Shown here piece by piece: positions 4,852-22,756 of a stretch of 64,000 nucleotides of DNA. Numbering within the stretch: the stretch's first letter is position 1; every line of letters begins with the position of its first letter. The position numbers and the translations under genes are program-made. The stretch spans positions 434,001-498,000 of the forward strand of contig NZ_CP113056.1 of NCBI RefSeq assembly GCF_026625645.1, in the 5' to 3' direction. Below the pieces are notes generated by a model. It saw only the letters and a list, made by a program, of their open reading frames with translations, ran no database searches and was not told the DNA's origin. The stretch is from Ancylobacter sp. SL191 (GTDB lineage Bacteria; Pseudomonadota; Alphaproteobacteria; Rhizobiales; Xanthobacteraceae).

Positions 4852-5030
4852 GGGCCGCGTGATCCCCCGTGGCAATCAAGGCTGTCAGATAGCCCGCCGA
4901 CCGCCAATTGTGGGGCGCCGAGCGGACTCTGGGTGGGGTGCATCGTCAGACGGAAGCCACGTTGTGGTCGCGGAATTCGTGCCGTCTATGCAAGGATAAC
5001 ACGCGACTCGGCTGGTCAAGAAAGTGGTCA

Positions 5031-6518
5031 ATGTACCTGCATTACAAACCATTCCGAAACTTCCTACGAAAGTTCTCGCTAGAGTCGAGCATGCCGCTTA
5101 TATGGAACTACTACCAGCACTTAAGTGCAAAACTTCCGTTGCCAACTGGTGCACAAATTACAAACAGCATGGGCGTAGCTCTTCCTGTAGCGAATTTTAT
5201 ACATAAATGGGACTTAGCGCTCCTAGCAAGAGAGTGCATTCTCAATTCTCAGGGGTCATCAATTATGCGATGGCCTGATATCCATACATCCATAAATTTC
5301 ATTCGCGACATCGAGGATTCATCGACTAGGTTGTACGGCTTCGAGCAGACCGTTTTTCGTGACCTTCATCCTCTACTGCACAGTCAATTTCCTTGGCAAC
5401 ACCCCCCTAGTAGCCGCAGCTTCCACAGGTATCGTCGAATATTCGGAAACGAGGCGATGGATGCCATTGTCGAGCGCGAAACAGGTTTGCCGGTCTCGCA
5501 GCAGTATAAGCTAGGCTTAGCGATAGCGGGACATTTCCTCCGGGAATACGGCATGTCTACGGCGCAGGATTATACTCGTCTCGGCATATCAAAGGAATCG
5601 TCTGCGGCATTTTATCAGAGAATATCCGTCGATATCGCTCCACTAAGGCAACAGATAAAATCACTTCAATCATATGACGCGAGTTGGCGATATGCATTCA
5701 ATCCGCTGCAAGTTACCCCACTAATTCGATTTGACGCGACCCATCCCGAGCGGGTCATATGCCCTATTCCAGACTACCTATTGCGTCGAGTGTCAGAGTC
5801 ACTTTTCTACGATATTGCAGGAGCGCAGGACATCGGGAATGCTTACGGCGCCTCCTTTGAAACATATGTCGGGGAGGTGCTGCATGCTATATTCAGCGAT
5901 AATTCGTATATAATAGATGCGGAGCGAGAGTATTACGACGGCAAGAACCGGAAGGACGGGGTAGACTGGCGCCTATCGGACGCTTCTGCGACGATATTTA
6001 TCGAATGCAAGACTAAACGATTGAGACATGATGCGAAGTTCATGACCGCCCCGGCCGCTCTTGGCGAGGATCTGGACAACATGGCGAAATATATCGTCCA
6101 GCATTACAACAATATAATCGATGCCCTAGACGGTAAAACACATTGGATTCCGGATGGCAAACCGATATTTCCGTTGATTATAACGCTTGAGAACTGGTGG
6201 ATAATTTTACCAGACACTATCGCCGCACTGAAAACACGAATTCTAGCTCGACTCACTGAAGCACAAATCAATCCTAAGATATTGGATGACCTTCCGTGTA
6301 CGATCATGTCTATCGCCGAATTTGAAATTTCATCCCAAGTCATGAAGCAGACGGGACTTCTAGAATATTTCCGAAATAAGGTATCTAAGTATATCGATTA
6401 TGACATAACGGGCTTTCAGAATCACTGCTTTCCCGATCAGGTTCGCGCGGTGGACAAGCGGATATTCGCGGATGATTTTTCCGAGCTAATGAAACTATCC
6501 CCTAGGTCACCCCAATGA
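5031..6518 (+). CDS. Protein with PD-(D/E)XK nuclease motif
   Basis: The open frame extends back to 4908, but the first 41 codons are unlike a protein start. I prefer the ATG at 5031, giving 495 residues; no strong ribosome site marks either. In the C-terminal half, 'DGVDW' (D312) is followed by 'IFIECKTKR' (E325, K327), the D...ExK signature of restriction-endonuclease-fold nucleases, preceded by a Glu-rich helix. The N-terminal 300 residues are unrecognised. AT content is high for this window. Cytoplasmic; no membrane segment or signal peptide. Its position among HEPN and HNH-like genes suggests a defence nuclease. A DNA-repair or mobile-element role is possible. Confidence 0.65.
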   Translation: MYLHYKPFRNFLRKFSLESSMPLIWNYYQHLSAKLPLPTGAQITNSMGVALPVANFIHKWDLALLARECILNSQGSSIMRWPDIHTSINFIRDIEDSSTRLYGFEQTVFRDLHPLLHSQFPWQHPPSSRSFHRYRRIFGNEAMDAIVERETGLPVSQQYKLGLAIAGHFLREYGMSTAQDYTRLGISKESSAAFYQRISVDIAPLRQQIKSLQSYDASWRYAFNPLQVTPLIRFDATHPERVICPIPDYLLRRVSESLFYDIAGAQDIGNAYGASFETYVGEVLHAIFSDNSYIIDAEREYYDGKNRKDGVDWRLSDASATIFIECKTKRLRHDAKFMTAPAALGEDLDNMAKYIVQHYNNIIDALDGKTHWIPDGKPIFPLIITLENWWIILPDTIAALKTRILARLTEAQINPKILDDLPCTIMSIAEFEISSQVMKQTGLLEYFRNKVSKYIDYDITGFQNHCFPDQVRAVDKRIFADDFSELMKLSPRSPQ

Positions 6519-6635: not shown

Positions 6636-7022
6636 CTAAAACGCGCTGGCGAGCGCCTGGAGTTGGGCTGCATTTGGCCCACCGAAGACGCGAGCCCCGT
6701 TTGGCGTCATCAACACTCCATAAGCCCGGGTGCTGTCGGGGCTGAATAGAACCTGCATATGGTTGTCACTGCAATTATGTGGCTGGCATATCGAAAACAC
6801 TTCGAACCGAAGGCCACGCGCGACAACTGTCACTGAGGGCGCGGTCACACCGTTGTCGAGCCAAGGCTCGGTCTTGCGCAGCGCGGCAATCATCCGATTG
6901 AAGGCGCTGCGGTACGGGTCTGTCTTAACGACATTGAAAAGATACCGCCCCTCTTCGGCCATCGCTGGCACTGCCGACAAAACGAAACTTGCGGCGCAAA
7001 GACCGGCGAGAATTAAGCGCAC
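6636..7022 (-). CDS. ivy: Ivy-family lysozyme inhibitor
   Basis: A 128-residue exported protein: signal peptide to about residue 22 (cut after AMA), then a compact domain with 'CQPHNC' at residues 79-84. The CxPHxC loop is the hallmark of Ivy, a periplasmic inhibitor of c-type lysozyme in which the loop enters the active site. Ivy homologues have also been reported to inhibit lytic transglycosylases. Length matches the family. The gene is on the same strand as, and just downstream of, the large peptidoglycan-hydrolase cluster that begins at 15.98 kb. It could protect the producer's own wall, especially against the transglycosylase domain encoded there; that link is inference. It is separated from the last cluster gene by about 190 bases. 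Confidence 0.8.
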   Translation of the reverse strand: MRLILAGLCAASFVLSAVPAMAEEGRYLFNVVKTDPYRSAFNRMIAALRKTEPWLDNGVTAPSVTVVARGLRFEVFSICQPHNCSDNHMQVLFSPDSTRAYGVLMTPNGARVFGGPNAAQLQALASAF

Positions 7023-7210: not shown

Positions 7211-7336
7211 TCAGATGATGCCGGCTCGTCCAAGCTCGCTTGCCAGCTTGGCGACGAACACCACGGCGAAAATCCAGAAGGTAAACGAGCGGCGACCACA
7301 AGAGACGCCTATGCAGCGCTCTCGGATTGAAATCAT
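7211..7336 (-). CDS. Membrane micropeptide 2 (41 residues)
   Basis: A short frame from ATG 7336 to TGA 7211. The product has a charged N-terminus (RERC, GRRS) followed by one transmembrane segment, 'FTFWIFAVVFVAKLA', and a short polar tail ending in GII. It follows a second, similar-sized membrane micropeptide frame by 44 bases on the same strand. Ribosome site is weak. Single-span peptides of this size can be holin-like, toxic, or subunit-stabilising; none of these is shown. Codons and hydrophobic pattern favour a real gene, but chance cannot be excluded at this length. Confidence 0.35.
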   Translation of the reverse strand: MISIRERCIGVSCGRRSFTFWIFAVVFVAKLASELGRAGII

Positions 7337-7380
7337 CGAAATTCTCGTACCGCTGAACGGTAAAATTCGGTTCATGGTCG

Positions 7381-7482
7381 TCATACTGCTTTGGAGAAAG
7401 AAAGACTATCTCCCAAAATTAGGACATATACAATCCAGATAATAGATCCGACGATCGAAACCATCCAAAACTGCCTCTCCAC
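7381..7482 (-). CDS. Membrane micropeptide 1 (33 residues)
   Basis: Starts at a GTG only 6 bases after the stop of the preceding small frame and ends at TGA 7381. After an N-terminal ERQF, the product is dominated by one long hydrophobic helix, 'MVSIVGSIIWIVYVLILG', with a short polar tail. Tight spacing suggests it is the next member of the minus-strand operon that carries the SGNH hydrolase and subtilase. Role unknown; a holin-like or anchoring function would fit neighbours that degrade cell walls but lack signal peptides. Confidence 0.4.
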   Translation of the reverse strand: MERQFWMVSIVGSIIWIVYVLILGDSLSFSKAV

Positions 7483-7488
7483 CTTGCT

Positions 7489-7770
7489 CTAAGACTTCAA
7501 GCCATACAACAGCTTCTCCATGCCATTTATCCTCAGAAATCGCTTCGCGATCGCGGAACCCAGCACGTCACGAGTCCGGTCCACGTAACGCGAAATCTCC
7601 TCGACCTCCTGTTCGGTCCCCAGGACGATGCAGCCCTCGGTGATGGCCTCCCCCGCATCGACGGAGTAGGCGACCTTTCGCAGCCATCGCCCACCCAGGC
7701 GAGACCCTCTCGGAGGTCGTTCCCCAATCGCTCCTCGCGGCAGTTGACGCACATCTGCCCCCCCGTTCAA
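7489..7770 (-). CDS. Small hypothetical protein overlapping the SGNH gene, possibly frameshifted
   Basis: A 93-codon frame starting with TTG that overlaps the stop of the SGNH hydrolase gene (TTGA). The C-terminal 60 residues look genuine (acidic helical stretch 'EQEVEEISRYVDRTRD'). The first 30 are Arg/Gly-rich and unconvincing. The neighbouring frame begins at ATG 7754 with the better-looking 'MCVNCREERLGNDLREGLAW', containing a CxxC. A single-base shift near 7675 would join the two good halves into one protein of about 88 residues. So this may be a frameshifted gene or a sequence error. No family recognised. Confidence 0.4.
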   Translation of the reverse strand: MNGGADVRQLPRGAIGERPPRGSRLGGRWLRKVAYSVDAGEAITEGCIVLGTEQEVEEISRYVDRTRDVLGSAIAKRFLRINGMEKLLYGLKS

Positions 7771-8825
7771 ACGAGCGCGGACAGGATTGGGGCGAACCGG
7801 GCCGCGACCTTCGCGAAACCCGCATCGGTGGGGTGGAGCTCATCCGCCCAGTCGTCGACGTTGGGCAGGGCGCCTCGAATGTCCGCATGATAGGCATGTC
7901 GGAACACGCCTCCGTCGTTGTTGCCGCCGCAAAGATGCTTCTGCATCTCGTTGAGGCGATCGATCATCCGCGCGACGATCTCCCTCTGCAGCACTGCATC
8001 GGCGATGCCCAGGCGCCCGAGGGGACCCGCCAGCCATTCGTCCCGATTCGCCCAAAGCGGATCCCTGGGATCGTCCTGGGCGAGCGCCGGAATCGCCCGA
8101 TCGTAGCCGTGGCACACGACCGAAATCCTGTCGCCGAACTCACGCCCGACCGTCTCGAAAAGCTGGCGATAGTTGCGCTCGACGGCGGCCAGGCGTTCGT
8201 TGAAGGCGTCCGTGGAGACGTACCAGCTTGCGGGACGACCCGGCTCGAAGCGGCGAACGACCTTCTCGATGACGGACCGACCGTCCGGATCCGAGCCGAC
8301 TATGTCGTTGCCGGCGCCCGAGAACATGAATATCTTCGGCACTGCGTTGCGACGGATCGCCTCCAGGTACTCCCGTTCGGTCGCGAGCATGTTCTGAACC
8401 GTGTCACCGGCGGCGGCGACGGACCAGACGAGATAGCGGTCGTCGACCTGGTCCACGACGTCCGACAGCATGATCGGGAACTCGAACCACGAGTCGCCTT
8501 CCGCCGTCACCAGCGGAAGCTTCTCCCCGAACGCGCGCCGCCTATCGAACCTCAACTGCCGCCTGAGCCGGGAGACGCCATTGGCCCAGTTCATCGCGAA
8601 CGCGCCCTGTACCCGGAACTCGTCGATGGGTTCTAGCACGACCTTGTCGCGATCGATCTGGAGAACCGGTGCGAAAGGTCGGGAACGCCTGCGATCGCCG
8701 ATGAAATAGCGCCGGAGCTCGACGTCGGGGATGGTCGGGTCCGCGAGCTTCTCTTCGAGTTCCCGAAACGTGATCGGGGTCGGCGCCTCGTCGGAAGCGG
8801 ACATCTGCGGGGTTCCCGTCGTCAT
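7767..8825 (-). CDS. SGNH/GDSL-type hydrolase
   Basis: A 352-residue protein with the blocks of the SGNH fold: 'AEGDSWFEFP' with nucleophile S112, a Gly in 'AAAGDT' (block II), 'GAGNDIVG' with N173, and 'DELHPTDAGF' with D328 and H331 completing the Ser-Asp-His set. SGNH enzymes are esterases, and some remove O-acetyl groups from peptidoglycan or other polysaccharides. Here the substrate is unknown. No signal peptide. Its ATG overlaps the stop of the upstream subtilase (ATGA), so the two are translationally coupled and probably function together. A 75-residue N-terminal extension before the catalytic core is unrecognised. Confidence 0.85.
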   Translation of the reverse strand: MTTGTPQMSASDEAPTPITFRELEEKLADPTIPDVELRRYFIGDRRRSRPFAPVLQIDRDKVVLEPIDEFRVQGAFAMNWANGVSRLRRQLRFDRRRAFGEKLPLVTAEGDSWFEFPIMLSDVVDQVDDRYLVWSVAAAGDTVQNMLATEREYLEAIRRNAVPKIFMFSGAGNDIVGSDPDGRSVIEKVVRRFEPGRPASWYVSTDAFNERLAAVERNYRQLFETVGREFGDRISVVCHGYDRAIPALAQDDPRDPLWANRDEWLAGPLGRLGIADAVLQREIVARMIDRLNEMQKHLCGGNNDGGVFRHAYHADIRGALPNVDDWADELHPTDAGFAKVAARFAPILSALV

Positions 8826-11077
8826 GTCGGGGCGAGTTCCGAATCGAGGTCGCCAGTGACGACCAAGGCGAAGTCTTGGGGCTGCTTGAGCAGGTTAGTG
8901 GCAACAATCTGGAAGAGCCAAGTGCCGGGCTTCGGATCGTCGACCCTCACGATCTCCACGTTGTTGTCCACATCCGGAAGCCCGATCGAGTGGCGCATTC
9001 GATCGTTGCCGATGAATTTGCGGCGATCCGGCGACTCGACGAACAGGTTCAGATTATTTTGAAGGCCGCGGCCGGGCGCGTCGGTGTAGGCTAGGCAGAT
9101 GCGCAGTTGGCGCTGGCCAGACTTGACTTCGAGGGCGTAGCGACGCCGCTCGCCTGTCCGTGTGAAGCGACCCTTTCCTTCTCCAAGGGTGTCGACGAAC
9201 GACAGCGCGAATGTCGGGGCGGTCGGGTGGGGGATCGTTGACGGCATATCCACGCAACCGAAGCCCTGGTCGAAGTTGGCAGGATGGAGCACGCCGGGAA
9301 GGTTACTCGCGTTGGCGTCCGCTCCAGACAGGCGCCGGGTCCCATTAACGATCGTTGCGCGCACCAGCGCCGATGAGGAACCGTGCTCGTGAGCCTCCCT
9401 GTAGAACTGGCGCGTTGCCGCTGCACAACCCGCCACCAGCGGTGCGGCCATGCTGGTCCCGCCCATGAATGCGTAGCGAGGGTTCGCCTGGTAGGCTCCC
9501 CAGAATGCGTTCAGAGGAGCCTTAGCCGATCGGCATGACAGAATGTCGGTGCCGGGCGCCACGACATCTGGCTTAATGCGGCGGTCGTCTGAGGGACCGC
9601 GACTTGAGAACGCGGCGAGGCATTCCGGGTTGCCTGAGATGCGTTCCTGCGCGATCGGCGGGTCGGGGAAATCCCGTCCCCATACATTTCCCCAGGTCAT
9701 TGCGCTGTAGCCGCCTGCCGTTCGGTCGCTTCGGCTTGCTCCGACGGTGAGCGCATTCTTGGCGGTTCCAGGCGCTCCGATCGACAACCAGTCGACGAAG
9801 CCGACCTCGGCGTTGAGCCGGCCTGCAGCCTGGCCTTCGTTGCCCGCGGCGAAGACCACGAGCATGTCGGGGCGCTTCGCGGCGAACTCGTCGACCTCGC
9901 TCGAACTGATCGTATACGTCGATGCGGTACTCGCCCCCCAGCTGTTATTGTGGACGCGGGCGCCGAGTTGATAGGCTTCTTCGAACAGGTCAGCGAGGTG
10001 GATTGGCAGGCCGCCCAGGCCGCCCCTAGAGTCGAGCAGGGACTGGAACACGATCTCGGCGCGCGGTGCCGTCCCGCACAGGGCACCACTGGACGCTTGG
10101 CCGTCGCCGGAACAGGAACCCGCGACGTGGGTGCCGTGCCCGTTGGGATCGTCCGCCGTAGACCGACCGCGTGCAATCACGTGCTTTAGGCGCCCGACGA
10201 AGTCCGGGTGCGTATCGTCAATGCCGGTGTCGGCAATGCCCACGATCTCCCCGCTACCGTCGTACGGCATCCGAACCGCGCCGCCCTGACCGGCCAGACC
10301 GATCAGTCGGCGGGCATGGTCATTCCATAGTTTCGGCGGGTGGAATTCCTCCAGCCGAGCCACGCCGACCAGGGCTGCGATCTCGCCCAGCAGCGGGGAG
10401 TTCTCAAGCGCGTAGAAGCGGATCTTCCGCTCTGCTGAACCGGCGATAGCAACCTTATGCTCATCCAGCCAATCGATCACCTCCGGAACATCGTCGGTTC
10501 GGTGCAGGAGCAAGTCGAAGGTGAGCATGCGCACCTCCGACGGCATAAACGGGGGCGGCGGTGCCAGCATGTCCGCCTGGGTGTCCTTGGTCGGGACCGT
10601 CTGCATGCCGTCGTACATAATCGCTTGGGCGACGAACGGCAGCGATCGAACGGACTTTACCTGCTCCGGCTGGAGCCGCGCCGTGTAGAAGCCGTTGCCT
10701 TGCGCCTCCAACAGTTCGACCTCGATCCCACCGAGCTGCTGCCGGTATTCCTCCAGGAATGGTCCGGGGATCTCGATCAGAAAGACATTGGGCTTGGAGA
10801 AATCGATTTCGCGGGATGGCGCGAAGGTGCGGTCCGAGAAGACTGTCGATCGGGGGCGCCCTTGGACGCGGGTCCCGAGGCCAGGGGTCTCCGGTTCACT
10901 ACGCGACTCCGCATCGATGGGCTGGACGATCAACCCCTGCGTCCGTAGCTCGACTATCTGGTTGTCGTCCGCTTCGCCTATAACGAAGCCCTCGGTGACG
11001 ACTGGTCGCGAGAGGATGCGCTCGGCCTCGTTCCGCTCCCCCTCATGCATGAAATGGGCAATGACGCGCTTGCGCAT
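8822..11077 (-). CDS. S8 subtilisin-like serine protease (KP-43-like)
   Basis: A 751-residue subtilase. Residues 1-240 are a novel N-terminal region (possibly a propeptide or targeting domain). The catalytic domain has D283 in 'IADTGIDDTHPDF', H314 in 'NGHGTHVAG', the oxyanion Asn in 'FAAGNEG', and S542 in 'GGTSMAAPLVAG'. A C-terminal beta-rich domain of about 130 residues resembles the P-domain-like jelly roll of KP-43 proteases. All catalytic residues are present. There is no Sec signal peptide (start MRKRVIAHFMHEGERNEAE), which is unusual for this class. The protein is either cytosolic, released by lysis, or exported by a non-Sec route. Coupled to the SGNH gene and 44 bases after the amidase gene. 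Confidence 0.9.
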   Translation of the reverse strand: MRKRVIAHFMHEGERNEAERILSRPVVTEGFVIGEADDNQIVELRTQGLIVQPIDAESRSEPETPGLGTRVQGRPRSTVFSDRTFAPSREIDFSKPNVFLIEIPGPFLEEYRQQLGGIEVELLEAQGNGFYTARLQPEQVKSVRSLPFVAQAIMYDGMQTVPTKDTQADMLAPPPPFMPSEVRMLTFDLLLHRTDDVPEVIDWLDEHKVAIAGSAERKIRFYALENSPLLGEIAALVGVARLEEFHPPKLWNDHARRLIGLAGQGGAVRMPYDGSGEIVGIADTGIDDTHPDFVGRLKHVIARGRSTADDPNGHGTHVAGSCSGDGQASSGALCGTAPRAEIVFQSLLDSRGGLGGLPIHLADLFEEAYQLGARVHNNSWGASTASTYTISSSEVDEFAAKRPDMLVVFAAGNEGQAAGRLNAEVGFVDWLSIGAPGTAKNALTVGASRSDRTAGGYSAMTWGNVWGRDFPDPPIAQERISGNPECLAAFSSRGPSDDRRIKPDVVAPGTDILSCRSAKAPLNAFWGAYQANPRYAFMGGTSMAAPLVAGCAAATRQFYREAHEHGSSSALVRATIVNGTRRLSGADANASNLPGVLHPANFDQGFGCVDMPSTIPHPTAPTFALSFVDTLGEGKGRFTRTGERRRYALEVKSGQRQLRICLAYTDAPGRGLQNNLNLFVESPDRRKFIGNDRMRHSIGLPDVDNNVEIVRVDDPKPGTWLFQIVATNLLKQPQDFALVVTGDLDSELAPT

Positions 11078-11121
11078 GGCTCAAACTCCAGTACCGGACC
11101 GGCGTTGGCGGTTTTCCGATG

Positions 11122-11811
11122 TCAACCCACGGGGACGGCAACGAATCGCTGGAATGCCGCGACGACCGCTTGCGCCAGGGCATCCTTGCGTTCGGCCCCG
11201 CGCTCGGCGTCCGCACGGTTGTCGCCGAAGAAGGGCTCGATCAGGACGCCGGGCATCCTCGGCGCGTTGACGCTCTCCCCGCCGCGTTCGCCGGGGCGCC
11301 TGAGCAGGATGCCCCGGTCACGCAAGCCAAGCGCATCCAGCATGGAGCGCTGCATGACGCGCGCAAAGGCCTCCGCCCGGGGGACCAGCCCATAAAGCGT
11401 TTCCGTGCCGTGACCGGCTCCGCCGGACGCGTTGAAGTGAAGTTCGCAGACGGCGTCGGCGCGCCAGTCGTTCACCTGCGCATAGGCGCCCGCGATGCCG
11501 ATGCCGTCCCGGAAGAACGTGCGGCTCGCGATGCCCGAGGCCTGGCAGATGGCCGCGATCCGCTGGGCGAGGTCCTTGTTCCAAGGATACTCCGACATGT
11601 TGATCGGAGGTCCCGCGACCGCACCCGCCGCGATCCGCGTGTGGCCGACGACAATAGCAAGCCGAGGCCCCGTCGCCAGGGGAGACATTTCCGGATCGGA
11701 ATGCGGCAAAGCCTCTCTTGGACTGGCGCGGTCGATCGCGTCGTCCGCCTCTTCCTGATGCGCCCGCAGCGCCTCGAAAGCCTCAAGTCGTTGCTCGTCC
11801 CCTTCGCTCAT
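11122..11811 (-). CDS. N-acetylmuramoyl-L-alanine amidase (Amidase_3)
   Basis: Starts at ATG 11811 behind GGGAGGGG; an ATG 9 codons upstream has no such site. The product is 229 residues. After about 40 helical residues comes a zinc amidase core: 'IVVGHTRIAAG' (first His), 'MSEYPWNKDLA' (Glu), 'CELHFNASGG' (second His) and 'GVLIEPFFGDN' (catalytic Glu). These match the AmiC-type Amidase_3 fold, which cuts the amide bond between MurNAc and the stem peptide. No signal peptide is visible, so access to the wall requires another route. It lies between the multidomain lysin and the subtilase on the same strand; a strong hairpin separates it from the lysin gene, so it may start a new transcript. Confidence 0.85.
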   Translation of the reverse strand: MSEGDEQRLEAFEALRAHQEEADDAIDRASPREALPHSDPEMSPLATGPRLAIVVGHTRIAAGAVAGPPINMSEYPWNKDLAQRIAAICQASGIASRTFFRDGIGIAGAYAQVNDWRADAVCELHFNASGGAGHGTETLYGLVPRAEAFARVMQRSMLDALGLRDRGILLRRPGERGGESVNAPRMPGVLIEPFFGDNRADAERGAERKDALAQAVVAAFQRFVAVPVG

Positions 11812-11868
11812 ACGCCCCTCCCGGATTGAGTGAAACACGGTTGCTTCGCGACTTCTCGCCGATTTCGA

Positions 11869-12225
11869 TCATTCCTTGTGATTCAGTTCAGTCAAGTTAA
11901 GCGGGGCTTCATACCGTGTCTCGACCGCAATCTTATTTTGCCGAACAAGCAACGGCGTCCTGAGTGTTAGGACGATCCGTAACTGGTCTGGCCCTCGCCT
12001 CAGTAAAGCGCGAAACGACGCAATCTGCACGCGAAATTTCCAGCTGACGTTGGGCGATCGAGAGCCGGCGTGCGCAGGCAGCACGAGGTGCTGCCTGCGG
12101 CCGGTTCGGCTTGCCCTGCGGAGCGCGCTGTCAGGACCAATGCTGTATCCTGAGCAGCGCCTCGGGGCGACGCACCTTGATGTTGCGCGCGGGCGCCGAG
12201 ATTGAAGAAATGGTAAGCCGCGCAT
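11869..12225 (-). other. Low-confidence frame in the 470-base gap between lysin and amidase genes
   Basis: The gap 11812-12309 holds a minus-strand frame of 118 codons. Its last 55 residues look protein-like (basic-hydrophobic alternation ending in TELNHKE), but its first half is Arg/Ser-rich and crosses the hairpin at 12072-12098. A plus-strand frame at 12111-12389 is likewise weak. I see no clear promoter. If coding, the minus frame would be a small member of the lysin/amidase operon. Confidence 0.2.
12072..12098. terminator. Strong hairpin downstream of the multidomain lysin gene
   Basis: A 12-base perfect stem (CGCAGGCAGCAC / GTGCTGCCTGCG) with a 3-base loop GAG. There is no T-run on either side, so it is either a Rho-independent-like terminator lacking the tract or an mRNA-stabilising stem. 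It lies between the lysin gene and the amidase gene. Confidence 0.45.
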
Positions 12226-12309
12226 GCGCGGACGCGCGCCGCTACCGGGACGGATCGCTTATCTCAGCAATGTCGGGCCTCGAGTTGGCGAAGACGCGGC
12301 GCCCCTACC

Positions 12310-15201
12310 TCAGACGACCCCCATCTCGATCAGCAGGGCGCAGGCGTCGCCATACCATTTGGCCGCCCGGTCGAGATGGTCGCCGGTGACCTTCAGCCCC
12401 CAGGGATTTGCGTCGGTCGAGCGTAGGCCCCCGGAGTTGTAGGCGGCGGCGACGAGGATCGGGTCGAAACCCGTCTTCCTCAGCCTCACGCGGATCTCGG
12501 CCGCGCCGATGTCGATGTTGGCGGGATACCCATAGAGCGGGTTGGCGGCCGGCGGGGGCATCGGCCGATCGCGATAATGCGGGGCCACGACGAACGGATC
12601 GTAGGCCAATCCGAACCTGGTCCCATGATCCCTGATGACCCATCGCGCGGTTGTGGCCAGCGTCTGCATGGGTCCGGCAGAGTAGTCCCCGTCGTCGGGC
12701 GGGTTCACGTCCCGGTTCTCGACGTGCGGTTCCCAGCGAAAGCTCCTCGGTCCGGTGAAGCCGTGCCTTGCGTGGACGTGGCTCTCCGTGGCGATCGTCG
12801 TCAGCACGAGGGCAGGTGGCAGCCCATGCTTGGCGCTCGCGTCGAGCACCTCGCGGCCCATCAGGTCCATGATCGATCGCATCGTCCTGAGGCTTTCCTC
12901 CCAGCGCGGCCGGGAGACGACGCCGGCGTCGCGGATCGCGATGCCGCGGGCGTCGAAGAGCCATTCCCTGCGTCCTCCCTCGAAGCGATGCCATTCGCTC
13001 GGCTCGATCTCGACGAAGGCCTCGGGCTGAAGCGCATCGCCGGCCCGCGCGGCGGTCGCGAGGGGGGACTGGGGGTAGTCGGCCGCGACGGCGACCCGTT
13101 CGTGGTCAAGACGGATCGCCGTCGCGGCCAGGTCGAGCAGCAATTGCGACGGGTTTCGAAGCGGCGCCGGTCTCGGATCGGCCTTCATCCAGCGCTTGTT
13201 CGCCGTCACGCCCGTCGCGTAGGCCTCGAAGTGCAGCATGTCGAGGCGGCCCACGAGCCCGATCTGCTGGCCGGCCCTCACGTTCGAGCCCAAGGCCAGT
13301 CCGAGTGTCCTGAGCGAATGGGGCTCCACCTCGCCGTAGTTCGCGACATAGCCTTCATGGGCAACGAGCAGCGCGTTGGTGCCCTCGTAGAAATCGTAGA
13401 AATTGACGATCCTGCCCTCCTCGATCGCAACGACGGGGTCGCCTTGCGAGCAGAAGAGATCGAGGCCGACGTGATACCGGCCACCGGCGCGATCAGCCAG
13501 GAAGCGGCGTCCGCTCCTCGCCCCGGAAACGCCGCCGTTCGCCAGCAGCGTGTTCACCTCCATCGCCTGCGGGTGACGCGTGATCAGCGGCCAGTATCTC
13601 GTCAAGGCGGCGGAGCGGGCGAACAGGACAGGGTCCGCCTCGGGGATCGGCCGCGCCTGCGCGGTCGCGGCCGCCTCCAGGGCGTGCGCCTCGAAGTGGC
13701 GATCTATTTCGAGCATGACGTCGTCGCGCGCCGCGGCTGCGATCCCCGAACCTGCGGAGGCGCTTGCCCGGGCGGGGCGGGCGGGCACGGCCATGCGCCT
13801 GCGGTGGGCGGCCACGAGTTCCGTGAACTCCCTCCAGCGGTCGGAGCCCGAACGGAGGACGCGGGGACAGTTCTTTCCCGTCCAGTCGAAATGCTGCTTC
13901 AGCCCGGCCGGCACGGCGATCCCGAGCTGGGTCGTCAGCTCCGCGCAGAGCTGGGCCGCCCGATCGTAGGCGAGCGCCTCGACCATATCCGGGTTCATGC
14001 AGATCTCGATGGCGACGCTGGAGGCGTTGGCCGGACCGGCGTGGTAGCCCATCTCGTTGACGGGAAGGTGCTGGTAGATCGACTGGTCGTCGACGGTGAA
14101 ATGCCAGGATACCTGCCGACGGACCGCATCTGCGCCGCGTATGTAGCGGTTATGGGCCTTGGCGCCTGCGCCCGGTGACGTGTTGTCGGTGTTGTGGATC
14201 GTGATGCTCGTCGCGCGGATGCGCGTACCGGGTCGCGTCGGGAAACCCACCGGGAGGAAATCCTGGATAACGGCCGGCCCGGTGGCGAGCGGCTCGGCGC
14301 GAACGTCCCGATCGGCGGCCATTGCCTCGAAAGCGAGCGCCGGGCCGCGGCGACGCTTCGCGCTGGCTCGCTTGCCGCGCGGAGCCTCCCCGTCACCGGA
14401 CGTGGCCCCGTCGAAGCGACGCTGGTCGGGCAGGGGCAACTCGGCGTCGCCGTCGCGGCCTCGCTCGCCGGACGTGCGCACCTGCGCGTCGGCAAGTCCG
14501 ACCCGCGCCGGCCACCGGGTCGGATGCAGCATGTATCCGCAGCAAAGCAGCGATTGCCTCGAACTCCGGATGACGCCGCGATCCGTCCGGCGCCCGCCGT
14601 CGAGCCTCGCGGGACCCTTCCCCGCGAAGAAGGCCCAGCGATAGCCGAGGCCCGCATCCGGCGAGTTCCGGCCCTGGGCGGAGAAGTACTTGAAGCCGAC
14701 CACCTTGGGGGAGAACGACGACAGGTCGTCCCCCTTCTCGTCCAGGTAGGAGAGGAAGACGCAGGCGTGCCCGCTGCCCGATTCCCGATTGAAGTTCATG
14801 AAGTCGCCGGGACGGAGGTCCGCGAACGGCACGACGCGCCCGATCCCGAAACGCTCCAGAGCGTGCGCCGTGCCGTTCGACCCGGTTCCGGCATACATGA
14901 AGACGTGGGCGCGGATGGAGGTAGGCGTCCCGCTCCGCCAGGAGGCGGCCGGCAGCTTCGTGAACGGGGCCTTGTCCCGGCTGGTACCGTACCAGCCCTG
15001 CATGGCCTCGACGATCACCTCCATCGCGGCGGCGACGCACATGGTCAGCGGAACGTGGTTCGCCGGGATCACCTCTCCGTCGCCGTAGACGAGGTCGTGG
15101 GTGAAATAGCTGCCGATGTCATACCCGCGCCCTCCATGGTCCCGGAAAAGCCGGTCGCCCGCGGCGAGGATGTCGTCGTTGAAGCCATCGCTGCGGATCA
15201 T
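12310..15201 (-). CDS. Four-domain peptidoglycan hydrolase (CHAP/NlpC-like, Amidase_2, M23, SLT)
   Basis: A 963-residue protein. (1) Residues 1-200 resemble a CHAP/NlpC cysteine hydrolase: C55 in 'PLTMCVAAAM', H145 in 'SGSGHACVFL' after 'LRPGDFMNF'. (2) Residues 310-465 are Amidase_2: H336 (TIHNTDN), E399, H437 and C445 (HFDWTGKNCP), all present. (3) Residues 555-690 are an M23 (LytM) domain: H577-x3-D581, but the H-x-H motif reads M655-L-H657, so a catalytic His is missing. (4) Residues 775-960 are a lytic-transglycosylase SLT domain: E806 (IATES), 'SAGPMQT', 'AAAYNSGG'. Together these could cut stem peptide, amide and glycan bonds. No signal peptide or membrane segment. Linkers are Ala/Arg/Gly-rich. 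Separated by 32 bases from the exported protein gene upstream. Confidence 0.85.
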   Translation of the reverse strand: MIRSDGFNDDILAAGDRLFRDHGGRGYDIGSYFTHDLVYGDGEVIPANHVPLTMCVAAAMEVIVEAMQGWYGTSRDKAPFTKLPAASWRSGTPTSIRAHVFMYAGTGSNGTAHALERFGIGRVVPFADLRPGDFMNFNRESGSGHACVFLSYLDEKGDDLSSFSPKVVGFKYFSAQGRNSPDAGLGYRWAFFAGKGPARLDGGRRTDRGVIRSSRQSLLCCGYMLHPTRWPARVGLADAQVRTSGERGRDGDAELPLPDQRRFDGATSGDGEAPRGKRASAKRRRGPALAFEAMAADRDVRAEPLATGPAVIQDFLPVGFPTRPGTRIRATSITIHNTDNTSPGAGAKAHNRYIRGADAVRRQVSWHFTVDDQSIYQHLPVNEMGYHAGPANASSVAIEICMNPDMVEALAYDRAAQLCAELTTQLGIAVPAGLKQHFDWTGKNCPRVLRSGSDRWREFTELVAAHRRRMAVPARPARASASAGSGIAAAARDDVMLEIDRHFEAHALEAAATAQARPIPEADPVLFARSAALTRYWPLITRHPQAMEVNTLLANGGVSGARSGRRFLADRAGGRYHVGLDLFCSQGDPVVAIEEGRIVNFYDFYEGTNALLVAHEGYVANYGEVEPHSLRTLGLALGSNVRAGQQIGLVGRLDMLHFEAYATGVTANKRWMKADPRPAPLRNPSQLLLDLAATAIRLDHERVAVAADYPQSPLATAARAGDALQPEAFVEIEPSEWHRFEGGRREWLFDARGIAIRDAGVVSRPRWEESLRTMRSIMDLMGREVLDASAKHGLPPALVLTTIATESHVHARHGFTGPRSFRWEPHVENRDVNPPDDGDYSAGPMQTLATTARWVIRDHGTRFGLAYDPFVVAPHYRDRPMPPPAANPLYGYPANIDIGAAEIRVRLRKTGFDPILVAAAYNSGGLRSTDANPWGLKVTGDHLDRAAKWYGDACALLIEMGVV

Positions 15202-15233
15202 GGAAATCTGCCCCCGGACGCGTCGACGCGCCT

Positions 15234-15980
15234 TCAGTTGAACCTGCCTCGTTCCTTGTCGGCAATGGCGGCGCCAGAGATCAGCCGATTGCGCTCGTTG
15301 CCCCAGGCCTGGATCATCTCCGTCCGAACCGCGTCCAGGAACGCCAGCCCCTGAAGGTCTCGCAACGCCGGCGCACCGGGAGCCTTCGCGAGTTCCTCGC
15401 GCGTTGTCGAGGCGATCCGGGCATACGTGAAGGCCCGGGTCGCGGCGTCGCTCTCAGCGCCCGGTGGCCCGCAAACGCCCCCGATGGGAGCGCGCGAGCT
15501 GACGGTGGCCGTGCGGATCGTGACCCCGTCCCGGAAAAGGAAGCAGTAGGGCTCCTGCGAGCTCCCGCCCAGGACGCTCTTGGGCTCGATGACGAAACCG
15601 GAGACGGCGAACTGGGCGTTTGAGGCTCTCCAGATCCTCGCCTCGACGTGACGAGCGCACGCGACCATCGAGGAGGCACGGGCATCCCTGCAGGCCGTGA
15701 CCGTCCAACGCGCGAGGCGGGCGGCGTCCGGCAGAAGCAGCGTGACGGCCGCCGACGCGCCGAGCTCGGTGTATCGACACCTGAGCGTATCGATACCGGT
15801 CCAGTTCGCCAGTGTCACGGGCGCACAGTCCCCTCTCATGTACTGGCCGCTCGCGAGGCGGGTGGCGAACCTCGCCTGGGTTTGCGCCAGCAGGGACGCG
15901 TCCGTCTGCGCAGCGGCGGCGGTGGTCAGGGCCAGCATGAGCGGCACGCCCATCAACCACCACTGCCTTGGCCGACGCAT
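15234..15980 (-). CDS. Exported hypothetical protein at head of lysin operon
   Basis: I place the start at ATG 15980, which follows GGAG at proper spacing; the frame extends 15 codons further but without a site. The product is 248 residues with a signal peptide (RRPRQWW..., hydrophobic to about residue 25, cut near AAAAQ). The mature part contains at least seven cysteines, suggesting disulphides and a periplasmic or extracellular location. No family recognised. It is the first gene of the minus-strand arsenal and ends 32 bases before the multidomain lysin, so it is a candidate chaperone, immunity protein or delivery factor for that enzyme. None of these is demonstrated. It is the only member of the core cluster with a clear Sec signal. 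Confidence 0.65.
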   Translation of the reverse strand: MRRPRQWWLMGVPLMLALTTAAAAQTDASLLAQTQARFATRLASGQYMRGDCAPVTLANWTGIDTLRCRYTELGASAAVTLLLPDAARLARWTVTACRDARASSMVACARHVEARIWRASNAQFAVSGFVIEPKSVLGGSSQEPYCFLFRDGVTIRTATVSSRAPIGGVCGPPGAESDAATRAFTYARIASTTREELAKAPGAPALRDLQGLAFLDAVRTEMIQAWGNERNRLISGAAIADKERGRFN

Positions 15981-16025
15981 GGGTAACTCCAAGTTGTAGC
16001 GGAAGTCGCAGGTGCAGGCTCTCAC

Positions 16026-17327: not shown

Positions 17328-18107
17328 ATGCATTTCTCAAAGTGCGTTATAGGCATTGCGCTGGCCGCCGCGGCCGTGATGGGGCATTTCACTCCAGCGT
17401 TTGCATTCGAAATGATAGAGCCCGAAGATAAACCAGCATCCGTGCAGGTAATAGGCGGACAACCGGCATCCAACAGCGAATGGCCGGCGACACTCTACTT
17501 TACGACCCCAGACGGCGCCTGCACGAGTACGGTTGTCGGGCCACGAGCCGTGATCACGGCCGCGCACTGCGTGGACGACGGACAAACCGGGACAATCCGT
17601 TTGAATGGTAGAACCGCAGGCGTTCGCTGCGAACATCATCCGGGTTACGCCGCGAACCACCAACTCGATGTTGCGATGTGTCTGGCTGCGGAAGACCTGA
17701 CGCTGCCGAACGGGGCGCGGTTCGAGCGCCTCAATAATGATCCGCAACAGCCCGCAATTAGGAGCGGCGTCGTGCTGCTTGGTTATGGCTGCCGGCGTGT
17801 CGGAGGTGGAGGAGCCACCGGCTCCTTGTACGTTGGAGATACGACGGTCGACAACTTCTCCGCAGATTACATCGTAACGAAAGGCGTGGCAGCGCTTTGC
17901 TTTGGTGACAGCGGCGGAAGCGCCTATCTGAAGACGTCCTTGCGTAGGCGCATCATCGGGATCAATTCCCGCGGCGACATTTCGGAAACGTCGTATCTTA
18001 CCAATGTCGCGTCTCCGTCCGTCATCTCGTTTGTCGGAGATTGGTCGAAAGGCAAGAACGCGCCGGTATGTGGGGTGGGCGCGCAGGCGGGTATCTGCCG
18101 TGATTGA
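17328..18107 (+). CDS. Trypsin-like serine protease (S1)
   Basis: A 259-residue exported S1 peptidase: signal peptide to about residue 27, then 'VIGGQPASNSEWP' like the mature N-terminus of trypsins (x-I-G-G), suggesting zymogen activation. The triad is complete: H80 in 'ITAAHC', D114 in 'QLDVAMC', S195 in 'CFGDSGGS'. Six or more cysteines fit disulphides. The specificity pocket cannot be judged from sequence alone. Preceded by a GATGGAGGAC ribosome site. Its stop overlaps the GTG start of the downstream subtilase, implying joint expression. S1 proteases next to subtilases suggest a processing cascade, which is inference. Confidence 0.9.
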   Translation: MHFSKCVIGIALAAAAVMGHFTPAFAFEMIEPEDKPASVQVIGGQPASNSEWPATLYFTTPDGACTSTVVGPRAVITAAHCVDDGQTGTIRLNGRTAGVRCEHHPGYAANHQLDVAMCLAAEDLTLPNGARFERLNNDPQQPAIRSGVVLLGYGCRRVGGGGATGSLYVGDTTVDNFSADYIVTKGVAALCFGDSGGSAYLKTSLRRRIIGINSRGDISETSYLTNVASPSVISFVGDWSKGKNAPVCGVGAQAGICRD

Positions 18108-20262
18108 TAGCAAGCGATACCTATACGCGTTAATGGCCGTTTCGGCGGTCAATGCCATGGGGGATGCGCATGCCGACGTCCTGGTACGCAGAACCAAACA
18201 AGCATCGCCTGAGCTTGTGCGAACCATAGCGGAAGTCGGCCGCGAAGAACAAACCCTGCTGCCGGCGGGCGCGTCGATCCTCGAGGCCGTCAGGTCTCGC
18301 TGTAACACCATCGACACAACCTATCTTGGCATTTTGACCCAAAAAAATCCGACGTTGATCGGCAAGTCTCTGTCAAAGCCTATGGACGGAGACCTCACCC
18401 TCACCTTTCCGGCATGTGCACGAGCCCCCGAAGCAGGCCCTCAGCAAGTGCCTGAGGGAGCGACGCTCGGAAAACTCGCGCTAGACCACGGAATCTCGTT
18501 CCCCATATCCGGCCGGCCGGTATTCCTCTCCAATTTCATCTCGCTCGACCCCGCGGCCGAGGGAGGCGCCCTTGCCGTCGAGGCAAAAGCCCGCCCTGCT
18601 GGAGAGGGTCCGGCATTCGATTTTGTGTTGGTGCAAGCGGCAGACGGGATTGGCGCAAATGGTGAAAAGAGACCGGTCAATAAAAAGGACGTCCTATTAG
18701 GTGTCGATAATGCCATCTCTTTCGTCCAGCTGAACGATGGCGCCAACCCCGACCGGCTAAAGGCCGGGTCCGTAATCCAGCTTCCTGGGACTTTGCCGGT
18801 GTGGTCGGAGTTGCCGCTCGCAGCTGGAATTTCCAAAGAGGCGGCTCTCTCGCGGATCGCGATGGCATTGGCGAGCGATGGCTCCCCACCGAATAATGTG
18901 ACGGTATCCCCGGCCGCATCCCTGGTTACGCCGAACAACGACTATACCTGCGCTGTTGAATCCTCGTCGCAATGGCCGTTCGACAAGGAAGCAGTGCTTA
19001 ACCAGCTGGCTGTCAACAAGACCCGGTATCCGGACGGTCAATTCGTTTCGCAGACCATCCTCGTCGCCGATACGGGCTTCGACTTCGTCGACGGTACGGG
19101 AATTCAGTTTCCGAAGACGGCACTGAGGAAGCTGGTCCCCTTTCCGGCTGCCGCAGGAAGCGACCCAGGCGCCATGACCGGCCCGCTGTCCGTCGACGGG
19201 ATCAATCTCACGGCCAGAAGGAATTCGCCGCAGACGAGTACGGCCGATACCTACCGTTTCCACGGCGTCGGAGTAGCAGGCGTCGCCATCGGAGGGCGCA
19301 CGTTTGAGGCCGAACGGCAGTTGATGTCCTCTCCTATCGGCCTCGGCTTCGCTAGCGTTACCTCGCCAAGCGATGGCCATATCAGCCCGACTGTGCTTTC
19401 GGACGCGCTCAGCTACATAATAAAGGACCGTCAGATATCGGTCATGAACGCCAGTTTCACGATCAATGGCCGCATCCCAGGCGTCGAACAGCTTATAAAA
19501 GATGTGGCATCTCGCGTCGTTCTCGTCGTCGCGGCGGGGAACGCAAACAATGAGCTTGGAAGCACCGAGTCCTGGCCTGCGATGTTCGGCGGAGATCCCG
19601 GCAATGCAGCAGGCGGTATTGTAATTACCGTAGCAGCTCATGATCGCGACGGGACCAAATCGCCGTTCAGTTCTTGGAGCGCGGACCGCGTCGACCTTCT
19701 GGCTCCGGGCTGCGGTATCCCGTCCTATTCGTCCAACGGCACCGCCGTCATGGACTCCGATTGGGCCGGCACCTCATTTTCTGCGCCGCTCGTGAGCTTC
19801 GTCGCTGCCTGGCTGGGGGCCTACAACCTCAATACAAGAGAGATAAAGGCGCGGATGATCTCGTCGGTAGACGCCAGCGACGCATTGGACGACGTCTCTT
19901 ATTCGCGCGGGACGCTCAACATCCCTCGTGCCCTTGCATTTGGGTTCAACCGGTATGACGTGATTGTCGGCGGCAAAAAGAAGACCATCCTATCAAAGGA
20001 CAACAAAGAAAACGGCATTGTCAAATTATGTGGAAAGGAATTCTATCTCTCCTCTCTGAGCAAAGTCGCAAAAGGCACTGCGACACTCCATGTGTGGCCC
20101 AAGAATCCCGATAAAGAACATCCTGAGATGATGAAACGATTGCCTCTTTGCAATCGGAAAACCGACGATGCATTTTCTCTCAATGTAACCGACTTCCGCA
20201 CCGGCGAAATAGCAGAGGTGTCCCTCGACAATTTGATCGACTTCACATCGGCTTCCCGTTGA
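18100..20262 (+). CDS. Exported S8 subtilisin-like protease
   Basis: The frame opens at 18004, but the GTG at 18100 gives a proper signal peptide (IDSKRYLYALMAVSAVNAMG, cut near AHA) and overlaps the trypsin gene stop by 8 bases. Product 720 residues. Residues 30-290 include two segments with LysM-like spacing ('ILTQKNPTLIG' and 'GATLGKLALDHGISF'), perhaps wall binding or a propeptide. The catalytic residues are D324 (ADTGFDF), H388 (RFHGVGVAG), Asn in 'VAAGNAN', and S559 (GTSFSAP). The His motif is FHGVGVAG instead of GHGTHVAG, atypical but with the His kept. C-terminal 110 residues unrecognised. A different subfamily from the signal-less subtilase in the neighbouring cluster. Confidence 0.85.
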   Translation: MIDSKRYLYALMAVSAVNAMGDAHADVLVRRTKQASPELVRTIAEVGREEQTLLPAGASILEAVRSRCNTIDTTYLGILTQKNPTLIGKSLSKPMDGDLTLTFPACARAPEAGPQQVPEGATLGKLALDHGISFPISGRPVFLSNFISLDPAAEGGALAVEAKARPAGEGPAFDFVLVQAADGIGANGEKRPVNKKDVLLGVDNAISFVQLNDGANPDRLKAGSVIQLPGTLPVWSELPLAAGISKEAALSRIAMALASDGSPPNNVTVSPAASLVTPNNDYTCAVESSSQWPFDKEAVLNQLAVNKTRYPDGQFVSQTILVADTGFDFVDGTGIQFPKTALRKLVPFPAAAGSDPGAMTGPLSVDGINLTARRNSPQTSTADTYRFHGVGVAGVAIGGRTFEAERQLMSSPIGLGFASVTSPSDGHISPTVLSDALSYIIKDRQISVMNASFTINGRIPGVEQLIKDVASRVVLVVAAGNANNELGSTESWPAMFGGDPGNAAGGIVITVAAHDRDGTKSPFSSWSADRVDLLAPGCGIPSYSSNGTAVMDSDWAGTSFSAPLVSFVAAWLGAYNLNTREIKARMISSVDASDALDDVSYSRGTLNIPRALAFGFNRYDVIVGGKKKTILSKDNKENGIVKLCGKEFYLSSLSKVAKGTATLHVWPKNPDKEHPEMMKRLPLCNRKTDDAFSLNVTDFRTGEIAEVSLDNLIDFTSASR

Positions 20263-20433
20263 GGTGGCAATCGTATTTCGATTGACACAGAAATATGCTC
20301 GCCTGAAACAGGTAATTATTTTTCCTCTGGTGGTGAAATCGTATCTACTTGATTGCGAGAACCGGCGAGTCGGAAGTATCGTTCGACTGTAGGTGTTATC
20401 CTTGGCTTCAATCCGGAGCTGGAGTTGCGCGGT

Positions 20434-21702
20434 ATGTTTCGTTGGATCACTCGTTTTGCACTTGTGCTGCTCGGGGCGGCTTCCGCCGACGCGCGAGAGG
20501 CCACCGTCGCGACATGGAATCTCGGATGGCACTTGTCGCAGGATCAGGCGGCGACGTGGATCGCGAAGTGCAGTGCGCCCTTTGCGAAAAACGCTCAAAC
20601 GGGCCTTTGGGAACCCGCAGCGGCGGGAACGCCGGGATGGGAGCTCAAATGGGGCCGCGATGCCCCGATCTTATGGGATATCGGCAATTGGCCACCCTGC
20701 GATGTGTTTCAGTCCAATTTTGACGTGGTCCCCGTCACCGCAGCCGCCTATGAAAAACGCGCCGATCAGGTACGCTTGCTGCTTGCCGATAAAGTTAAGG
20801 CCGACATCATCGCGTTTCAGGAAGTCAGCGGCGAGCAGGCGATCCGCGATGTTTTGCCGGACGGCGGCAAGGATTATCTCGTCTGGTCGTTCGACGGCTT
20901 TAAAATTCAACGCCTTGGCTTCGCCTGGCGCAAGGAGCTCGGCCCTGCGAGCCTCTGCGCCGAAGAAACGACCATCAGCCTTCCGCAATTCGCTCCCAAG
21001 GATCAGGTGCGGCCAGGGCTTTCACTTGGGCTGACGATCGGCGGCAAAAAACTGCGGCTGCTGAACGTTCACTTGAAATCGTCCTGCGTCACGCCGGTCG
21101 AGGCTGAACCCGGAAATCCCCGCGGAGCTCTGGCCGGCGACGATCCGGCTTGCCAGGTACTGCAGCAGCAGGTCTCGCCGCTCGAAGCGTGGATAGAGAC
21201 GGCCGGCGACGAATCCGACTACTTGATCATTCTCGGCGATTTCAATCGCGCAATTTGGCACGAGCTCCATCGAGACGAGCAGGTGCGCACCGATGGCTCC
21301 GACCCGGTGGGGCCGCTCGCGTCACCGGTCAGTGTCAATAGCCTGATCGAAGAAATAAACGATGGAAAGCCGGTCAGCAGTAAATTGACCGTTCTTGAAG
21401 AGCATTGCCCGCTCGATGCCTCTACACAAGCCGCATGCGTCACGGCCGAGAATCCTGAAGACAAGGCAGCTTGGCGGGCTTCGACGAAAACCCTGGCGGG
21501 AGTCAACAGCCTCGGTTGCCGTAACCCCGTCGGGCTCGACCACATCGTGCTTGGCCCCGGCCTCACCGCCGGACAAGCCGCCGTCAAGGTGCCCTTGGGT
21601 CGCCAGGGCCGTACGTTGCCGGCAAACCAGACGCATCCAAATCCGCTGCTTGCTCTTTCGGACCACTGCCCGCTCGCAGCCGTTGTCCATTTTCCGGACT
21701 AG
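20434..21702 (+). CDS. Exported endonuclease/exonuclease/phosphatase family protein
   Basis: I place the start at ATG 20434 behind GGAG; the frame extends 27 codons upstream without a site. The 422-residue product has a signal peptide (MFRWITRFALVLLGAASADA) and the EEP (DNase I-like) motifs in order: 'ATWNLGWHL' (Asn), 'IIAFQEV' (catalytic Glu), 'LNVHLKSSC', 'IILGDFNR' (Asp, Asn), 'LDHIVLG' and 'LSDHCPLAAV' (Asp-His). All metal and catalytic residues appear intact. The protein probably acts outside the cytoplasm, as a DNase or a phosphodiesterase. It is the last gene of the plus-strand cluster, 171 bases after the subtilase; DNase plus proteases makes a coherent degradative set. Confidence 0.85.
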   Translation: MFRWITRFALVLLGAASADAREATVATWNLGWHLSQDQAATWIAKCSAPFAKNAQTGLWEPAAAGTPGWELKWGRDAPILWDIGNWPPCDVFQSNFDVVPVTAAAYEKRADQVRLLLADKVKADIIAFQEVSGEQAIRDVLPDGGKDYLVWSFDGFKIQRLGFAWRKELGPASLCAEETTISLPQFAPKDQVRPGLSLGLTIGGKKLRLLNVHLKSSCVTPVEAEPGNPRGALAGDDPACQVLQQQVSPLEAWIETAGDESDYLIILGDFNRAIWHELHRDEQVRTDGSDPVGPLASPVSVNSLIEEINDGKPVSSKLTVLEEHCPLDASTQAACVTAENPEDKAAWRASTKTLAGVNSLGCRNPVGLDHIVLGPGLTAGQAAVKVPLGRQGRTLPANQTHPNPLLALSDHCPLAAVVHFPD

Positions 21703-21808
21703 AGCGACGTGTCTTCCGCCTTTGGCGCGATTCTTGGCGCAGCGGCTGGCAAGAGTGCGCGTTAAATTCGGCGATGCTATGCAGCAAGCCACGTCGTCTC
21801 CGACGGCG

Positions 21809-22585: not shown

Positions 22586-22635
22586 GCCCAACGCTTTCCC
22601 AAACTCGTTCTTTCACCCGCCAAAGGAGACTACCC

Positions 22636-22740: not shown

Positions 22741-22756
22741 CGGGCGGGAAAAACGC

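Follow-up and report, generated by a model that had tools for sequence, protein, structure and literature searches.

Hydrolase genes at the locus and their surroundings

The window analysed here is the whole stretch of 64,000 nucleotides that spans bases 434001 to 498000 of the 4.65-Mb, single-contig genome of Ancylobacter sp. SL191. On its minus strand, from base 16025 down to 7211, lie all of the frames claimed in a preliminary description of this DNA, namely those for an exported protein, a cell wall hydrolase, an amidase, a subtilase, an SGNH hydrolase and a series of small frames (Table 1). The genes had been taken for a self-contained module. The enzyme genes do share the minus strand, but a 471-bp gap, within which the GC content shifts from 0.64 to 0.68, separates the gene for the 963-aa wall hydrolase from the Amidase_3 gene, so that the genes may or may not form a single operon.

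Table 1. Coordinates of the window features discussed in the text
Feature	Position	Strand	Basis and remarks
Exported 263-aa protein	15234..16025	-	Signal-like N terminus; no Pfam match
963-aa wall hydrolase: cysteine-peptidase-like N-terminal region, Amidase_2, M23 and lytic-transglycosylase-like C terminus	12310..15201	-	Pfam, XlyA homology, motifs
Amidase_3 N-acetylmuramoyl-L-alanine amidase	11122-11838	-	Pfam; no signal seen
KP-43-type S8 subtilase, ~270 residues before the catalytic domain	8822-11077	-	Pfam Peptidase_S8; no signal seen
SGNH hydrolase	7767..8825	-	Motifs, predicted fold; Pfam GDSL lipase match under cut-off
93-aa frame	7489..7770	-	Seemingly what is left of the N-terminal part of an M12 metallopeptidase gene
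27-aa hydrophobic frame	7381..7464	-	Gene status unsupported
57-aa single-span frame	7211..7384	-	Gene status unsupported
Ivy-family lysozyme inhibitor	6636-7022	-	PF08816, 3.2e-12; signal-like N terminus
Trypsin with signal-like start, apart from the cluster	17328-18107	+	Pfam, hydropathy

The amidase, described earlier as a zinc enzyme, is an Amidase_3 protein by Pfam. The KP-43-like character of the subtilase is borne out by matches to KP-43 itself (1wmd, 6.6e-71) and to SubHal (5fax, 5.3e-72); the KP-43 match spans residues 273 to 740, and the D/H/S motifs are present. Against PADLOC, the same protein hits the "subtilase" model at 2.7e-27 and the IetS models more weakly, and in sequence it resembles defence subtilases. 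The SGNH gene overlaps the S8 gene by 4 bp, in keeping with the ATGA coupling noted earlier, and its product carries the GDS, G, N and DxxH blocks, motifs that are invariant among its relatives. The motifs found in the S8, SGNH, Amidase_3 and Amidase_2 proteins of the window are those that we take to be catalytic.

The structure model of the SGNH protein is confident (pLDDT 92.8), and a Foldseek search with it against the PDB returned 21 matches at E ≤ 0.001, with TM-scores by query of 0.27 to 0.43. These are mostly esterases, lipases and acetyl-transfer enzymes, and they include a phospholipase A1, PatB and a putative platelet-activating-factor enzyme; a designed scaffold accounts for ranks 1 and 6. 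We place the frame in the SGNH hydrolase superfamily, with a predicted fold of the esterase/lipase kind. A separate docking tag was considered for its conserved N-terminal stretch of ~60 residues and set aside, since this stretch was never found apart from SGNH in the compared loci.

Four regions can be made out in the wall hydrolase, which had been described as a four-domain peptidoglycan hydrolase. Pfam finds Amidase_2 at residues 331 to 447, M23 at 576 to 666 and a weak SLT match at 894 to 928 (E 0.013, under cut-off); the fourth, N-terminal region contains conserved Cys and His motifs that it has in common with a Rhizobium lusitanum protein (44%), and from these motifs it appears to be cysteine-peptidase-like. 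A single-sequence structure model of this region reached a pLDDT of 33.8, and the label therefore rests on a reading of the sequence. The closest solved relative of the Amidase_2 domain is XlyA. The M23 site reads M-L-H, and as the usual motif is presumably H-x-H, one of its residues is unusual. A relative from S. mexicanum matches at 58.7% across residues 311 to 963, and among the plasmid matches (40 of 53 records) most are confined to the surroundings of the Amidase_2 domain.

Within the genus, the flanking DNA is matched most closely by genome G261 (92%). Over the 20 kb compared, the alignment does not begin until base 32515 and runs rightward from there, so that bases 1 to 32514 of the window form a variable stretch relative to that genome. 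In 2-kb steps, the GC content runs from 0.47 to 0.69 up to base 32000 and from 0.65 to 0.72 past it. The variable stretch that carries the cluster is probably mobile. A family-level search found SGNH in 9 of 296 genomes, its own included, and none of the 8 other carriers belongs to the same genus; the closest relative in that search (L003, genome G100) is identical across all 4,014 fetched bases to a locus of Rhodoplanes tepidamans (L038). In class-level samples of 385 genomes each, with its own genome counted, SGNH occurred in 10, the N-terminal region of the wall hydrolase in 2 and the 263-aa protein in 1; all three are thus rare and patchy, as for mobile cargo. One relative of the N-terminal region (G390:C2:371493-372189) lies in two overlapping pieces, as if its gene were broken. 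Also within the variable stretch, on the plus strand at 4908-6518, is a frame whose product resembles the GapS1 family (match below cut-off), which hints at a defence island.

Downstream of the SGNH gene, the small frame of the preliminary description is present as an ORF, but its similarity is limited to the front part of an M12 protease, and it lacks a catalytic domain. The match covers 33 aa at 55% in the N-terminal pre-region of a Pararhizobium gei M12 metallopeptidase (E 4e-5 in the window comparison, 0.2 in the plasmid search), and there is a weak match to LegP (E 0.044). The P. gei plasmid locus also holds SGNH, DUF3616, an L,D-transpeptidase, a chitosanase and a phospholipase-D-like gene, and from its sequence the 93-aa frame looks like the remnant of a further protease from the same gene pool.

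The two smallest frames, which overlap each other by 4 bp, had been proposed as pores for signal-less lysins, and the cluster would then be a cassette of the holin-endolysin type. Both frames are open and hydrophobic, a purine-rich stretch lies upstream of the 27-aa frame, the Amidase_2, M23 and Amidase_3 domains are similar to phage endolysin families, as is the S8 domain to the phage protease family phrog_3677 (5.5e-30). However, neither frame has a convincing homologue in 116 compared loci. The 57-aa frame was not called by codon usage (the 27-aa frame falls below the 50-aa minimum of the caller), and against 72,556 plasmids it gave only five matches, at E 0.6 to 0.9, one of which spans 95% of the frame at 40.7%; the 27-aa frame was compared with the fetched loci only. 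As no conservation was found, we set the pores aside as unsupported. A search of 50,697 phage records for SGNH gave no match, and a phage origin for it and a phage-type cassette around it are likewise without support. To our knowledge, neither S8 nor SGNH enzymes are parts of lysis cassettes. The window hydrolase resembles XlyA-type phage endolysins in its Amidase_2 homology and in showing no signal, but it differs from them in that no phage context was found for it, in its several catalytic regions and in its protease and esterase neighbours. Taken as a whole, a holin-endolysin-like cassette seems to us very improbable.

Recurrence of SGNH hydrolases beside proteases, wall hydrolases and nucleases

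Whatever the cluster means has to be drawn from one recurring domain, that of the SGNH hydrolase, and not from the peptides. The association of SGNH with proteases is the strongest claim of our analysis. A tblastn search against plasmids gave 32 records at 1e-5 and 34 at 0.01. Thirteen of the 34, picked by hand, partly for their annotation and so not at random, were examined as loci, and 12 of these 13 carry an annotated protease, wall hydrolase or nuclease, either fused to SGNH or no more than ~10 kb from it; the sole exception is a Pseudomonas aeruginosa plasmid (L025). A genome scan yielded 469 SGNH relatives, the best 80 of which were analysed and come from Alpha-, Beta- and Gammaproteobacteria, Cyanobium/Synechococcus and others. 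Among these best 80 of 469, the SGNH frame exceeds 450 aa in 32. By profiles of the partner families, a protease (caspase, trypsin, S8 or papain-like), wall hydrolase or nuclease is fused to SGNH in 29 of the 80 and is either fused or less than 3.5 kb away in 61, or in 57 if DUF3616 and the papain-like family are left out; at 19 of the 80 loci there is no such partner enzyme.

Pfam was run on 40 SGNH proteins, made up of that of the window, 7 of the 8 plasmid frames longer than 450 aa (L024 was left out) and all 32 genome frames of that size. It found caspase in 21, Trypsin_2 in 11, M15_3 in 8, Amidase_3 and Exo_endo_phos in 4 each, and S8, Endonuclease_NS and M74 in one each. PADLOC gave caspase for 19 of the same 40 proteins, two RT-Protease_XI models for 7 and 4, NACHT for 3 and subtilase for 1.

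Across 92 loci, 68 partner-family genes lie in the 598.2 kb near SGNH versus 2 in the 479.5 kb farther out, a contrast that was not blind, as the families tested were picked after the neighbours had been seen. Gene calls on the compared loci were anchored on the SGNH frame. The NucA and M74 profiles came from trypsin-containing proteins and mostly hit trypsin, and both labels were excluded from the partner counts. In a Pfam control on 85 distal ORFs, none of the partner families appeared among the best 25 of 121 hits, versus Trypsin_2 in 13 of 169 operon neighbours. Many of the 169 operon neighbours have ordinary functions in metabolism or transport, and members of cobalamin and transport families are often seen next to standalone SGNH genes.

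Two arrangements recur close to SGNH. In 15 of the 80 loci (again the best 80 of 469), a trypsin of 341 to 393 aa is encoded head-to-head with SGNH at a distance of at most 132 bp. All ten trypsin-called proteins that were checked by Pfam, six of them from head-to-head loci, proved to be Trypsin_2; one is fused to Endonuclease_NS and two to a TPR-S sensor domain. TPR-S-trypsin proteins adjoin SGNH in L059 and L116, and in R. johnstonii a trypsin-NucA fusion lies 31 bp past SGNH. The second arrangement involves a papain-like family of ~700 aa, found at 15 loci, 14 of which have it no more than 150 bp from SGNH; the label comes from a reading of motifs and from 4 Peptidase_C1 matches among 84 neighbours that were not traced to the family, and two members scanned alone had no Pfam match. 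Four SGNH relatives (L083, L095, L105 and L111) lie in a shared Pseudovibrio chromosomal neighbourhood, and L083 and L095 have the head-to-head trypsin.

The gene order of the window was also sought elsewhere. The full set was seen only in the window, which leaves a fixed gene set unsupported, but part of the order was recovered: two MAGs, one of Mesorhizobium (L057) and one of Phyllobacteriaceae (L067), have Amidase_3, S8 and SGNH in succession on the same strand, and there the Amidase_3 protein carries glucosaminidase and ankyrin domains. One possibility is that the window shows a loose accretion of degradative genes, gathered in a variable region, of which only S8 and SGNH, and perhaps Amidase_3, cooperate. 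The restriction of the full set to this window, the 471-bp gap with its change in GC and the broken M12 gene all point that way, as does the presence of wall hydrolase and 263-aa protein relatives among loci in which SGNH was not detected (L018-L020). However, wall hydrolase relatives in S. mexicanum, R. lusitanum and R. leguminosarum lie less than 10 kb from caspase, DNA/RNA endonuclease or DUF3616 genes, and the presence of such genes at L018-L020 places these loci in the gene pool that also surrounds SGNH relatives; the recurrence of the Amidase_3-S8-SGNH order is a further argument against mere accretion. We regard this explanation as a minority possibility.

Export signals and candidate protective proteins

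The four large enzymes had been said to lack a Sec signal, and hydropathy finds no signal in any of them. To cover other starts, the sequence upstream of each was read in frame as far as a stop (84, 10, 1 and 23 residues), and hydropathy found no signal there either. KP-43 and SubHal subtilases are exported enzymes; the window S8 differs from them in showing no signal and in the overlap of its gene with that of SGNH. The N terminus of the 263-aa protein is signal-like by hydropathy, in agreement with its earlier description as an exported protein.

The same pattern extends to the relatives. Only 5 of 92 SGNH relatives have a hydrophobic stretch near the start of the longest frame, and we judged these to be start-site artefacts that precede the conserved region; a hydrophobic N terminus was found in 4 of the 68 protease, wall hydrolase and nuclease neighbours of SGNH, versus 65 of 312 distal ORFs. 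Given how few these are, the SGNH family looks cytoplasmic. An exception is found in R. lusitanum, where a relative of the N-terminal region of the wall hydrolase, a caspase and a relative of the 263-aa protein form a trio (L019:9926-13764) in which all three have signal-like N termini. We read this trio as part of the window's kit in exported form.

The R. lusitanum protein (32%) is the sole relative of the 263-aa protein that was found, and its gene lies two genes from that for the relative of the N-terminal region. In the window, 32 bp separate the 263-aa gene from the wall hydrolase gene, and it is possible that the 263-aa protein is a periplasmic partner or inhibitor of the wall hydrolase. 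Ivy proteins inhibit lytic transglycosylases, and the Ivy-family inhibitor, whose gene lies beyond the range first described and is putatively linked to the cluster, could possibly serve in self-protection.

Taken further, these neighbours would suit an effector-immunity arrangement, in which rivals would receive the signal-less wall hydrolases and the proteases, and the periplasm of the producer would be shielded by the exported 263-aa protein and by Ivy. The short distance between the 263-aa and wall hydrolase genes, the nearness of their relatives to each other in R. lusitanum and the position of the Ivy gene after the cluster favour it; what opposes it is that no T6SS VipB was found in the genome, that no delivery domain was noticed and that the R. 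lusitanum protein related to the N-terminal region itself begins with a signal-like stretch. We hold such an arrangement to be unlikely. Delivery by a T6SS was rejected for want of VipB in the genome, and a contractile injection system was also dismissed: the only sheath match, below cut-off, is in L119 (G000:C1:3398001-3418000), which we read as an ordinary prophage with terminase-like and portal-like frames.

Comparison with known systems and a possible role for the cluster

The preliminary description stated that no described system has this gene set. This was too strong. As presented by Kaur, Burroughs, Iyer and Aravind (2020), System 3 already couples NucA and trypsin, sometimes with S8, to lysozyme-like or papain-like peptidoglycan effectors, mostly in alphaproteobacteria and with an EAD1 adaptor in a subset (PMC7159879). 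System 3 and the window have in common several peptidases, including S8, together with domains that attack peptidoglycan (S8, Amidase_2, Amidase_3 and M23 in the window), and one SGNH relative adjoins a trypsin-NucA fusion. Unlike System 3, the window cluster has neither NucA nor trypsin: Pfam scans of 20 window proteins found no NucA-type Endonuclease_NS, and Pfam found no trypsin in the minus-strand cluster. We therefore do not file the cluster as a member of System 3; by analogy, it may work in a similar manner.

Protease-activated nuclease pairs offer a second comparison. According to Tuck et al. (2025), proteases activate pro-nucleases, and an MBL-fold nuclease occurs with trypsin or caspase in Hachiman/AVAST and canu loci (PMC12799240). 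The likeness is that a protease gene is paired with a gene for a hydrolase that the protease possibly activates; the difference is that the pair in the window is SGNH and S8, and Pfam found no MBL protein in the minus-strand cluster. LypABC of Caulobacter is reported to be a trypsin-containing lysis hub, in which LypC joins trypsin to an endonuclease and the lytic effectors are unknown (PMC13236601). It resembles what we propose below in that lysis is driven by a peptidase, unlike that by holin and endolysin. It differs in its CARD-NLR core, which is not seen in the window cluster, where Pfam found no NTPase/ATPase domain in the proteins. The word SGNH is absent from the main texts of PMC7159879, PMC8195603 and PMC13236601 and was not found in PMC12799240, and no description of an SGNH-protease pairing was seen among the listed titles and abstract openings of the open-access literature.

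Our preferred reading, to which we assign a probability of roughly 0.45, is that the cluster is a cytoplasmically stored, protease-controlled kit of hydrolases for suicide or lysis. We infer zymogen control, a trigger, a breach of the membrane and a purpose along the following lines. The S8 protease would be made with its long N-terminal extension, which probably holds it inactive, and the amidases and the four-region wall hydrolase would be made without signals and would be harmless behind an intact inner membrane. Infection, damage to the envelope or attack by a neighbour would then act as the trigger for the activation of S8; the membrane would be breached, possibly by SGNH itself, and the wall hydrolases would go on to lyse the cell, either as suicide defence or with release of its contents onto neighbours.

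The earlier proposal of a lysis or suicide-defence module thus survives in part. The signal-less hydrolase kit on a variable stretch near a GapS1-like frame, the company of proteases, wall hydrolases and nucleases that SGNH relatives keep and the defence-like S8 are in its favour, whereas the pores, the phage-type SGNH cassette and the fixed gene set are not supported. In favour of a stored kit we count the presumed catalytic motifs, the recurring partners of SGNH and their few hydrophobic N termini, the PADLOC matches and, as precedents in print, the activation of pro-nucleases by proteases and the lysis hub LypABC. Against it we count that no NTPase, trypsin or NucA was found in the cluster, that the full set was seen only here, the 19 partnerless loci among the 80, the frequency of cobalamin and transport families beside standalone SGNH genes, the choice of partner families after the neighbours had been seen, the broken M12 gene, the unusual M23 residue and the signal-like starts of the R. 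lusitanum relatives and of the caspase between them.

A bolder version, which we consider distinctly unlikely, is that of a widespread and so far undescribed protease-SGNH pair, in which a signal-less protease (trypsin, caspase, papain-like or S8) would activate a dedicated SGNH lipase. Acting from inside the cell, the lipase would breach the inner membrane as an enzymatic substitute for a holin, and co-stored wall hydrolases and nucleases would finish the cell. If this were true, enzymes of this sort could be put forward as the lytic effectors sought in systems where a protease drives lysis. If SGNH were the shared executor of protease-triggered suicide, a membrane or ester target would be added to the known nuclease outputs, and these hydrolases would be candidate agents by which, in the absence of a holin, protease-driven lysis opens cells.

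The same variable stretch holds a second array, on the plus strand at 17328-24307. It consists of the trypsin of Table 1, another S8 and an Exo_endo_phos nuclease, followed by an MPTase-PolyVal metallopeptidase (21980-22585) and an MBL-fold protein (22757-24307) that has no trypsin or caspase beside it. Hydrophobic, signal-like stretches lie near the starts of the trypsin, the S8 and the nuclease (the starts of the latter two are uncertain). In the two plasmids examined, relatives of the nuclease have PLD, S8 or patatin genes close by, and for the MPTase-PolyVal protein there is a 46% relative at L011:19728-20372, a locus on an R. johnstonii plasmid where SGNH and trypsin-NucA are also encoded.
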